Origin: an uncultured beta proteobacterium
GTDB taxonomy: Bacteria; Pseudomonadota; Gammaproteobacteria; Burkholderiales; Rhodocyclaceae
DNA length: 64,000 nucleotides
Assembly: GCA_903908065.1 (NCBI GenBank)
Contig: CAIVQO010000022.1
Location: 1-64,000 of the forward strand
Direction of reading: 5' to 3'
Made by a program: the position numbers and the translations under genes. Positions 38,633 to 45,228 of this stretch are shown here, piece after piece. Position 1 is the stretch's first letter; the number at the start of each line of letters is the position of its first letter. Under the pieces are notes generated by a model. It had not been told where the DNA came from. It did no database searches and saw only the letters and a program-made list of their open reading frames with translations.

Positions 38633-40579
38633 TTGTCCAAGCTGAAATCCCTGCTCCCCGTTTTGAAGACCCTGCGCACCGGCGTGGCCGGCAAGCTGGC
38701 CCTGGCCTGGCTGGCCCTGTGCGGTCTGATCGGCGCCGCCGGCTGGTTGGGCGCGCTGGAGCGCATCGAACTGCTGGCGTATGACGCGGCTATCGCCTAT
38801 ACCAGCCAGGCGCGCAGCGAACTTCCTGTGGTGCTGGTGGGCTCCAGCGACGAAGACTTGCAGAAGTACGGCTGGCCGCTGCCCGACGACAAGCTGGCGG
38901 CCGTGATCGAGCAGGTGGCGGCCGCCGGCGCCGTCGCCATCGGGGTCGATCTGTACCGGGATCGTCCGGTGGGCGGCGATGAGGAGGTGTTGGCGGAACT
39001 GTTGCGCAAGCGACGCAACGTCGTTTTCGTATCCAAGCTCTCGTCGGGACGGCAGGCCGCCATCGAAGGTCCGAAGAGCATTCGCGGCAGCAGCCAGATC
39101 GGCTTTGCCGACATTCCGATCGATGACGATGGCGTGACACGGCGTGCGCTGCTGTTCGCCGAGGACGCCAGCCGGACCCAGATTTCCTTCGGCCTGCGCC
39201 TGGCTCTGGCAGCCATGGAGGCGAAGGGCATCAAGCCGGAGCGGGTGGGCGATACCACGCGCATCCGCCTTGGCGCGCGCACGATTCGTCCGATCACCGG
39301 CGGCGAGGGCCCGTACCACGATGTCGACAACGGCGGCTATCAACTGCTGATCGACTACCGCGACGAAATCGGCGGCTTCCGCCGCTTCAGTGTCGCCGAC
39401 GTGATCGAGGGGCGTGCCGGGGCACAGAACTTCAAGGGGCGGGTGGTCATCGTCGGCACGGCCGCGCAGGGTGTGAAGGATTTCTTTTCCGTACCCTCGA
39501 ACCGGATCGTGGGCGATCGACAAGCCTTCGGCATCGAGGTCCACGCCCAGATCGTGACCCAACTGTTGCGCCTGGCGGGGGGCGAAGTGCGGCAGATTCT
39601 CAGCGTTCCGGCCCCGCTCGGCCAGGCCTGGGTTCTCGCGCTGGCCGCCCTGGCGCTGGCGCTGGGCTGGCGCCTGCAGCGCCTGCCGCTGCTGCTGCTG
39701 GCTGGTGCGGGGGGACTGCTGGCCCTGGCGGCCATCCATTTCGTGCTGTTCCAGGCCGGATGGTGGCTGGCGCTGACGCCGGCAATGCTGGCCTGGGTGG
39801 GCGGCCTTGGCTGGGCCATCGCCTATGCCATGCATTCGCAGTCGCAGCTGCGCAAGCAGATGATGGGCCTGTTCAGCCGCTACTTCTCGCGGGACGTTGC
39901 GGAACAGATCTGGAACCGGCGCGACGAGGTACTCGACAGCGGCGGCATGCCAGCGCCCCAGCAGATGGTTGCCACGGTGTTCTTTTGCGACCTGGCCGGG
40001 TTCACCTCCAAGGCCGAGGTGTTGTCGCCGAAGGAACTCACCGGCCTGCTCAACGCCTACTTCGAGGCGGCCGTTTCCATCATCCATCGCAATGGCGGGT
40101 CGATCGACAAGTTCATCGGCGATGCGGTGATGGCAGTGTTCGGCGTGCCGATTCCACGCCTGAGCAAGGAGGACATTTTTGCCGACGCGCGGTGCGCGGT
40201 GGCCTCGGCCATCGAATTCGGCGCCGCCATCGAAAAGCTCAACGAAGGCTTCGTCGCTGCTGGCCTGCCGACGATTGCGGTGCGCATGGGCATCCACACC
40301 GGGCCGGTGGTGGCTGGCAGCATCGGCAGCACCCAGCGCATGGAGTACACGGTGATCGGCGACACGGTCAACGTGGCCGCGCGCCTGGAAGGGCTGGACA
40401 AGGGCGGCCGGGGCGACCGGTCGAGCCGCATCCTGATCAGCGAAACCACACGCCATTGCCTCGATGCGAGCTTCAGCGTCGAGCGCCTGGGCGAATTCCG
40501 CCTGCATGGCAAGCGCGAGATGGTCGAGGTGCACCATGTGCTTGGTCGCACAGCGGAAGCGCGGGAGGTCGCCAAATGA
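38633..40579 (+). CDS. CHASE2-domain adenylate/guanylate cyclase
   Basis: A 648-residue membrane cyclase. One N-terminal helix is followed by a periplasmic CHASE2 sensor (residues about 40-310, with VVLVGSSDEDLQKYGWPLPD and GRVVIVGTAAQGVKDFFSVP). Then come three closely spaced helices (about 325-405) and a class III cyclase domain. Catalytic parts are visible: FFCDLAGFTSKAEVLSPKEL (metal Asp), NAYFEAAVSIIHRNGGSIDK, FIGDAVMAVFG (second Asp), and YTVIGDTVNVAARLEGL. It should make cAMP in response to an envelope signal. The TTG start lacks a clear ribosome site. The stop overlaps the kinase start (ATGA). Confidence 0.88.
   Translation: MSKLKSLLPVLKTLRTGVAGKLALAWLALCGLIGAAGWLGALERIELLAYDAAIAYTSQARSELPVVLVGSSDEDLQKYGWPLPDDKLAAVIEQVAAAGAVAIGVDLYRDRPVGGDEEVLAELLRKRRNVVFVSKLSSGRQAAIEGPKSIRGSSQIGFADIPIDDDGVTRRALLFAEDASRTQISFGLRLALAAMEAKGIKPERVGDTTRIRLGARTIRPITGGEGPYHDVDNGGYQLLIDYRDEIGGFRRFSVADVIEGRAGAQNFKGRVVIVGTAAQGVKDFFSVPSNRIVGDRQAFGIEVHAQIVTQLLRLAGGEVRQILSVPAPLGQAWVLALAALALALGWRLQRLPLLLLAGAGGLLALAAIHFVLFQAGWWLALTPAMLAWVGGLGWAIAYAMHSQSQLRKQMMGLFSRYFSRDVAEQIWNRRDEVLDSGGMPAPQQMVATVFFCDLAGFTSKAEVLSPKELTGLLNAYFEAAVSIIHRNGGSIDKFIGDAVMAVFGVPIPRLSKEDIFADARCAVASAIEFGAAIEKLNEGFVAAGLPTIAVRMGIHTGPVVAGSIGSTQRMEYTVIGDTVNVAARLEGLDKGGRGDRSSRILISETTRHCLDASFSVERLGEFRLHGKREMVEVHHVLGRTAEAREVAK

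Positions 40580-45228: not shown

Follow-up and report, generated by a model that had tools for sequence, protein, structure and literature searches.

A CHASE2 cyclase-kinase-miniprotein operon with a facultative CHAT gene, possibly a reduced form of a CHASE2-DUF928-CHAT cassette

Why would one bacterial locus encode a membrane sensor with a nucleotide cyclase, a kinase, a very small exported protein and a caspase-like peptidase? The four genes in question lie on the forward strand of a 64,000-nucleotide stretch of DNA, here called the window, from an uncultured bacterium of the Rhodocyclaceae (assembly GCA_903908065.1, contig CAIVQO010000022.1). They encode a CHASE2-class III nucleotide cyclase, a Ser/Thr kinase, an 89-residue miniprotein (P0003) and a peptidase with a CHAT domain. 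An initial annotation, made from the letters alone, took them for a four-gene island in which the miniprotein could be the protease substrate, and suggested a link to defence. We find instead that the cyclase, kinase and miniprotein genes (the trio) form a tight operon, which CHAT joins as a facultative fourth gene, and that the miniprotein bears the N-terminal motif of the DUF928 proteins, GxPxxxVGG[AG]TR. Our preferred reading, to which we assign a probability of about 0.5, is that the locus derives by reduction from a CHASE2-DUF928-CHAT envelope-sensing cassette and is restricted to this lineage, with the miniprotein as the periplasmic partner of CHASE2.

Organization of the locus

The cyclase gene (38633..40579; 648 residues, TTG start) encodes a CHASE2 domain (residues 33-341, 38729-39655, E 7.4e-50) and a Guanylate_cyc domain (residues 446-631, 39968-40525, E 1.7e-26), and the kinase gene (40576..41922; 448 residues) a Pkinase domain (residues 15-223, E 1.2e-43), all by Pfam. 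The kinase gene begins within the last 4 bp of the cyclase gene, where ATGA (40576-40579) holds both the start and the stop codon. The miniprotein gene follows (41933..42202), and a strong hairpin with a 14-bp stem (42215..42249, about -30 kcal/mol) separates it from the gene for the 983-residue CHAT protein (42277..45228). This hairpin has no T run and is absent from the list given by a terminator scan; the 70 bases 3' of the miniprotein gene in two relatives, G908 and G919, fold more weakly.

When a plain hydropathy threshold is applied to all four proteins, no hydrophobic segment appears in the kinase, and four appear in the cyclase, at residues 17-36, 87-107, 322-340 and 348-366. In the miniprotein, as in the CHAT protein, a single segment at the N terminus exceeds the threshold, and on this basis both look exported. 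The initial picture of an envelope sensor, a class III cyclase, a kinase and a caspase-like protease at one locus, with a small exported protein after the kinase, stands in both coordinates and domains.

Conservation within the genus

Cyclase orthologues (E<=1e-70) are present in 4 of the 31 genomes of the genus, the window's included, and are 90% (G908), 72% (G919) and 72% (G906) identical to the window cyclase. G908 and G919 keep the cyclase-kinase-miniprotein order with the 4-bp overlap and a gap of 9-10 bp after the kinase; G906 keeps the overlap, and its contig ends inside the kinase gene. The gene overlap behind the translational coupling annotated in the window recurs in all three relatives. 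The ratio of nonsynonymous to synonymous divergence (dN/dS) against G908 is 0.125 for the cyclase (0.054/0.431), 0.08 for the kinase (0.037/0.462) and 0.145 for the miniprotein (0.104/0.719). The window, G906 and G919 have a divergent OYE-family gene next to the start of the trio. In G908 this gene is separated from the trio by the FeS and XDH genes, which in the window come after the CHAT gene; in G913 and G917, where the trio is absent, OYE directly adjoins FeS-XDH.

Only in the window does a CHAT gene adjoin the trio for certain; in G906 the arrangement is inferred, in G908 a scar is left, and in G919 the locus has none. In G908 no CHAT gene lies 3' of the miniprotein gene, and what remains is a 33-bp scar of a CHAT 3' end, 85 bp past the miniprotein stop (91% identity, E 8e-8 against 735 bp), which reads FFWAPYMPVGDG in one frame. 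The CHAT protein of G906 is 65% identical to that of the window, and its gene stands in tandem with a second CHAT gene at a contig end. The genes adjoining this pair read as Kef-type, and the same genes lie directly 3' of the miniprotein gene in G919; because of this common flank, the G906 order is probably cyclase-kinase-(miniprotein)-CHAT-CHAT, and CHAT is absent from the G919 locus. Across whole genomes, the Pfam CHAT model finds no gene in G919 (79% complete), one 200-residue fragment on another contig in G908 and three matches in the window genome. The fixed four-gene island was rejected because CHAT adjacency is variable. The G908 scar, with the flank shared by G906 and G919, does indicate that a CHAT gene adjoined the trio before the divergence of some of these species.

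The miniprotein and the DUF928 motif

The miniprotein orthologues are 78-80% (G908) and 46-47% (G919) identical to that of the window. The conserved core of the window miniprotein, GKPTKTVGGATRS (42071..42109), resembles the N-terminal motif of DUF928 proteins in a motif scan, with a motif hidden Markov model (HMM) and by comparison with DUF928 N termini; the motif peptide itself is GKPTKTVGGATRSVKKN. The G919 orthologue, though 46% identical overall, keeps GKPAKTVGGATRG inside the segment GLAxAxVGKPxKTVGGATR[SG]VKKN, which is the best conserved part of the miniprotein across three species. Most of the DUF928 proteins examined start with GAPxxRVGGGTRG or close variants after the signal peptide, those of Cyanobacteria less strictly than those of Proteobacteria. 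Of 360 window sequences, P0003 scores best with an HMM of 11 DUF928 N termini (E 5e-4), and the next match after P0003 and its overlapping open reading frame (ORF) has E 0.87. The pattern [VIL]GG[GASV]TR, picked after the sequences were seen, has seven distinct matches in all locus ORFs examined (five DUF928 proteins, P0003 and one that is apparently off-frame) against three once the ORFs are reversed (1.78 million residues, including overlaps).

The miniprotein may descend from a DUF928 protein, and convergence on the motif is possible; descent is not proven, because the likeness spans about 13 residues and no DUF928 fold is left. NCBIfam gave no family for the miniprotein, and the Pfam model finds no DUF928 in the window genome. 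Mere chance, with the miniprotein an unrelated, lineage-specific exported peptide, is an explanation we consider distinctly improbable. The match is short, its surroundings are of low complexity and the miniprotein has no Pfam match of note, all of which chance would accommodate. Chance would not lead one to expect that so rare a pattern coincides with the best conserved part of the protein, or that the protein follows a CHASE2 cyclase of a subfamily that is mostly linked to DUF928.

A recurring CHASE2-DUF928-CHAT neighbourhood

That subfamily was delimited by a cut of E<=1e-80, set after the match list had been seen, with up to three candidates per genome scored at class level. G088 is the only other one of 150 family genomes with a cyclase within the cut (40% identity), and 11 more genomes have one among the 369 of the class. 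The 12 subfamily cyclases are 34-41% identical to the window cyclase over nearly its full length. DUF928 passes the Pfam cut-off in 11 of the 369 class genomes and in one of the 150 family genomes, again G088. Cyclase and DUF928 occur together in 10 of the 368 class genomes other than the window's own and each alone in one (Fisher p 1.1e-17, kinship ignored). G623, whose DUF928 falls below the curated cut-off, is outside this table, and its stretch (L181) has no DUF928, CHAT or close cyclase match. CHAT is on the stretch at 9 of the 12 subfamily loci, about 8 kb from the cyclase in the case of L152, and DUF928 at 8 of the 12. Among cyclase loci below the cut, L161 has both DUF928 and CHAT, L163 has DUF928 and L162 has neither.

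DUF928 on plasmids was found in six records, all cyanobacterial, with CHASE2 nearby in five. CHASE2 stands directly before DUF928 on the plasmids of Nostoc NIES-3756, Calothrix 336/3, Brasilonema octagenarum and Calothrix brevissima, and the order on the Pseudanabaena ABRG5-3 plasmid is CHASE2-FHA-CHAT-DUF928, its CHAT protein being WP_225886893.1 and its DUF928 protein WP_126391651.1. These six plasmid loci and 13 over-cut-off places in the family and class genomes make up 19 DUF928 loci, of which 15 have CHASE2, 13 have CHAT and 17 have either. Two-partner-secretion transporters adjoin in 5 of the 19 (L089, L151, L152, L154 and L161). Four DUF928 proteins and one CHAT protein were confirmed directly with Pfam. 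Set beside this neighbourhood, the window has a CHASE2 sensor of the DUF928-linked subfamily and, with the variability in the genus described above, a CHAT gene next to it. It has no DUF928-domain protein beside the sensor, P0003 carrying the motif only, and its CHAT does not belong to the clade of the cassette CHATs (see below).

Some loci depart from this pattern in other ways. At L088, L092 and L093, in genomes of the bacterial family, a CHASE2 cyclase lies beside a CHAT gene and a gene whose exported product, by our reading, looks like FecR and takes the place of DUF928; the exported protein of L092, when scanned, gave no FecR match. On contig C29 of the window genome (L185 1315-9664), another CHASE2-class III cyclase is encoded next to two caspase-domain proteins of the Peptidase_C14 type, one of them fused to an FGE-sulfatase domain, with an adjoining ShlB-type transporter gene; here a CHASE2 cyclase is paired with caspase-fold peptidases of a type other than CHAT. 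On the plasmid of Calothrix sp. 336/3 (L240 6123-13666), the gene directly before CHASE2-DUF928 encodes a TIR protein that partly matches CHAT, and a POTRA-TPR-CHAT protein is encoded on the other side of that pair.

The CHAT peptidase and its relatives

The CHAT domain (residues 638-981, 44188..45219, Pfam E 5e-43) contains the His and Cys noted in the initial annotation, His835 (44779-44781) and Cys886 (44932-44934); both are invariant in an alignment of 27 CHAT sequences, the window's included. Matches of the protein to TPR stay below the Pfam cut-offs. The AlphaFold2 model (predicted local distance difference test score, pLDDT, 81.8; predicted template-modelling score, pTM, 0.80) matches Csx29 and separase in fold. 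With its CHAT domain bearing His and Cys and a TPR-like helical N terminus in the model, the protein is predicted to be a TPR-CHAT peptidase. NCBIfam gave no family for it, and an alignment-based search of PDB sequences gave 170 matches, of which the 60 listed are, to judge by name, TPR proteins. A search of plasmids with the CHAT protein returned 60 records, none with 80% coverage, and one with the cyclase returned two, both partial matches. Glu922, a candidate for the acidic residue of a pocket that would take Arg, is not established in that role; 22 of the 27 aligned CHAT sequences have Glu there. The top two Foldseek rows by E-value are to the anti-sigma factor DdvA, at TM scores of 0.22-0.28. 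DdvA, a transmembrane anti-sigma factor, is possibly a related TPR-CHAT-like sensor.

Relatives of the window CHAT are encoded at 53 loci in named genome contigs, 15 of them on stretches shorter than 12 kb. The window cyclase has a BLAST match on 5 of the 53 stretches (L104, L122, L134, L141 and L149) and the window kinase on two (L124 and L145). At the nine closest CHAT loci (at least 50% identity over at least 275 residues: L097-L103, L125 and L126) neither protein has a BLAST match on the stretch; this set leaves out the fragments L141, L142, L143, L145 and L146 and a 163-residue second ORF of L120, although they too reach 50%. A CHASE2 HMM matches on five of the 53 stretches (L104, L122, L125, L141 and L149; a raw count), and Pfam confirmed CHASE2 in all four of these that were scanned. 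At L125 the CHASE2 domain lies 2 kb upstream of a CHAT that is 56% identical to the window's. The survey of gene neighbours called for by the initial annotation thus gives a divided answer: CHAT recurs beside the subfamily cyclases and CHASE2 beside some CHAT relatives, and within the genus the trio is constant wherever it can be read and CHAT is not.

Alternatively, the locus could hold two units that are independent of each other, the cyclase-kinase-miniprotein operon being complete in itself and a separate CHAT gene lying downstream of it by chance. The hairpin between miniprotein and CHAT gene, the trio without CHAT in G919, the scarcity of cyclase and kinase matches at CHAT loci and their absence from all nine of the closest fit such an arrangement. 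We nevertheless hold it to be quite unlikely, given the CHAT 3'-end scar in G908, the flank common to G906 and G919, and the fact that CHASE2 and CHAT genes adjoin in other lineages.

Two further observations concern individual CHAT loci. In the Rhodocyclales metagenome-assembled genome (MAG) MS_R2_18 (L125 2-5741), CHASE2, an ORF read as a caspase domain, an exported 281-residue protein and a CHAT that is split into two ORFs are all encoded on one strand, the first two upstream of the CHAT. In the CHAT tree, the CHAT of L120, recorded as a Bordetella parapertussis MAG, is nearly identical to that of L103, a Betaproteobacteria MAG, and for this reason the species label of L120 looks doubtful.

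The tree was built from 83 CHAT domains with a minimum length of 230 residues, a limit that excludes the partial CHAT of L152. It places the window CHAT in a set of 11 (support 100/99, midpoint root). The CHATs encoded beside a subfamily cyclase fall elsewhere, eight of nine in one set of 10 (100/100), none of them with the window CHAT; two of these nine loci (L150 and L160) lack DUF928 on the stretch, and the cyclase of a third, L161, falls short of the cut. By this tree the history of the CHAT gene is different from that of the cyclase. Since the window CHAT lies outside the clade of the subfamily-cyclase CHATs, it would be an exchanged one; the cassette logic of CHASE2, motif protein and CHAT would therefore have been kept with a new CHAT, unless the neighbourhood is coincidental.

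The clades also bear on the idea that the CHAT peptidase cuts the miniprotein or DUF928, perhaps after the Arg of VGGxTR, and that this cleavage is the signal. The CHATs beside DUF928 and the one beside the miniprotein belong to different clades, CHASE2 is a more frequent DUF928 neighbour (15 of 19 loci), and the miniprotein is kept in G908, with its single CHAT fragment, and in G919, where none was found in a genome that is 79% complete. This explanation is, in our judgement, unlikely, and the substrate role that was first proposed for the miniprotein is weakened accordingly. Because the miniprotein persists where CHAT seems to be gone, being a CHAT substrate is unlikely to be its sole role.

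The cyclase and the kinase

The class III assignment of the cyclase rests on the Guanylate_cyc domain and on Asp, Lys, Asn and Arg visible in the sequence, which we take to be the catalytic residues; the product is likely to be cyclic AMP (cAMP). Kinases of the same bacterial family that carry a C-terminal cyclic-nucleotide-binding (cNMP-binding) domain are of similar length and 35-47% identical in the kinase domain; the domain was found in both sister kinases scanned, and FGE-type residues align in all 31 sister C termini. The corresponding part of the window kinase (41401..41919) differs from them in having no detectable cNMP-binding domain and, by alignment, no FGE...R residues. This orphan region has no Pfam match (E up to 10), matches an HMM of the 31 sister C termini at best with E 0.036 in a two-sequence search, and aligns to the sister domains in hhalign with a probability of 0.3%, which is not significant; an AlphaFold2 run on the single sequence, without an alignment, gave a failed model (pLDDT 37.6). 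Three sequence tests and one structure prediction thus did not reveal such a domain, and it is unproven that cAMP acts on the kinase directly. In 399 genomes of the order the region is matched in the window's own genome and, marginally, twice more (E 2.5e-4 and 6.6e-4). It is 94% identical in G908 and 59% in G919, and the kinase orthologues conserve RGDxVWICGxQPQGAxPGGF at the position of the phosphate-binding motif of the sister domains.

Cyclase and kinase are also where a defence function would find its footing. An anti-phage system resembling Pycsar or CBASS, with the kinase and the protease as effectors, is brought to mind by PADLOC, in which PD-T4-6 models match the kinase domain and PycC models the cyclase domain. 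These matches span the catalytic domains only, which are of a generic kind, and neither the CHAT protein nor the miniprotein has a match at E<=0.01. In the PADLOC scan of the four proteins the cyclase domain alone matches the PycC models, and no Pyc effector appears among the matches listed for the other three (for the kinase, the best 25 of 34). The cyclase has a membrane sensor, the CHAT protein and the miniprotein look exported, several relatives adjoin two-partner-secretion transporters, and neighbouring ORFs read, by eye, as metabolic genes. The suggested role in defence thus gains no specific support, and we regard it as highly improbable.

Proposed function

In our preferred reading, the parent cassette would have three parts: a membrane sensor with a CHASE2 domain, a DUF928 protein and a CHAT peptidase, the last two exported. 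In the window, the sensor forms one protein with a class III cyclase; the DUF928 protein would have been cut down to, or replaced by, a miniprotein with the N-terminal motif only, a cytoplasmic Ser/Thr kinase would have been added through translational coupling, and a CHAT of another clade would serve as a facultative member. The miniprotein, like DUF928, would act as a dedicated periplasmic partner or ligand of CHASE2 that sets cyclase output; the coupled kinase would relay the signal in the cytoplasm, and CHAT, where present, would modulate the periplasmic side. We infer the binding of miniprotein to CHASE2, the role of the kinase and the cleavage target of CHAT. The miniprotein is preferred as the CHASE2 partner, with CHAT as an accessory, because CHASE2 with DUF928 or miniprotein is the commonest pair and because the miniprotein outlives CHAT in G908 and G919. 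A protein ligand for CHASE2 would also fit the Sinorhizobium meliloti CHASE2 cyclases, which answer a protein signal, according to the available part of that account (PMC13001267).

Several observations weigh against this proposal. The likeness of miniprotein to DUF928 is as short as stated above, and the DUF928 proteins of L156 and L159 keep the GGTRG part of the motif and lack GxPxxxVG. The window CHAT lies outside the clade of the CHATs beside subfamily cyclases. Subfamily loci lack DUF928 on the stretch at L150, L153, L155 and L160 and CHAT at L153, L155 and L157, some of these stretches ending early, and BLAST gave no kinase match among the matches listed for 14 cyclase loci. CHASE2 is out of reach at the DUF928 loci L178, L179 and L180, the last two of which also lack CHAT, and a Planktothrix plasmid (L239) has DUF928-CHAT with no CHASE2 in reach. 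The HMMs for CHAT and DUF928 were moreover partly seeded from the scored loci, and their E-values are not independent because seeds and search set share loci.

A variant that we rate as decidedly unlikely makes the parts into a relay. CHAT would process the exported VGG[AG]TR motif protein, this being the N terminus of DUF928 or, in the window, the motif-only miniprotein; the motif peptide, processed or intact, would be the CHASE2 ligand, which cutting by CHAT would make or destroy, and cyclase and kinase would report inward. If this relay were true, the window would hold a minimal form of an old cassette common to Proteobacteria and Cyanobacteria. 

With one short motif shared across the recurring neighbourhood, and a natural minimal form that keeps that motif only, the function of DUF928, the ligands of CHASE2 and the targets of exported CHATs become open to peptide-scale tests in vitro.

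Comparison with known systems

We found no joint account of CHASE2 and the CHAT domain in the openly licensed literature, in keeping with the initial view that the combination is not a described system, nor a description there of the recurring CHASE2-DUF928-CHAT neighbourhood as a system. The same literature yielded no account joining the CHAT domain with two-partner secretion or CHASE2 with filamentous hemagglutinin.

The closest precedents share parts of the arrangement. In Nostoc punctiforme, a CHASE2 sensor gene is clustered with a DUF928 gene (PMC5587647), an association to which the six plasmid loci above add a shared N-terminal motif; as far as the accessible sections of that report go, the cluster differs from the window in its two WD40 proteins and its intact DUF928 domain. 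The cyanobacterial CHASE2 proteins examined here have, as far as their ends show, no cyclase fusion, unlike the window protein. The S. meliloti adenylate/guanylate cyclases CyaD1, CyaD2 and CyaK resemble it in fusing CHASE2 to a class III cyclase and in answering a protein signal at the envelope, which is conveyed via an outer-membrane protein; the part of the account available mentions no coupled kinase, DUF928-motif protein or CHAT (PMC13001267).

Among CHAT proteins, Csx29, the TPR-CHAT component of Craspase, acts with Cas7-11 and is RNA-activated according to the portion of the source consulted (PMC10028731), whereas the window protein looks exported. HetF of heterocyst-forming cyanobacteria likewise combines CHAT with TPR; in the sections available, it is described as a divisome component that acts at the septum, and it differs from the window CHAT in having a transmembrane segment and an N-terminal CHAT domain (residues 1-555) (PMC8406250). 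A metacaspase-CHASE2 fusion of Trichodesmium erythraeum also links a caspase-fold peptidase to a CHASE2 sensor, but the peptidase is of the Peptidase_C14 type, is part of one polypeptide and is predicted to be cytoplasmic, so far as the consulted parts of the two reports say (PMC3501461, PMC2853523).

Other genes in the window

Two genes on the reverse strand encode a SulP-like transporter (14031-16379) and an RND/MMPL-like protein (56091-58895). Their C termini read by eye as cyclic-nucleotide-binding domains, which would make them possible cAMP receptors. Near the start of the window, the reverse strand carries what we take to be a UbiD-like decarboxylase pair, a HAD-like protein and PEP-synthase-like genes (378-7513). 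Together they presumably resemble an anaerobic phenol cluster (phenylphosphate synthase/carboxylase), with a sigma-54-type activator at 7939-9684.

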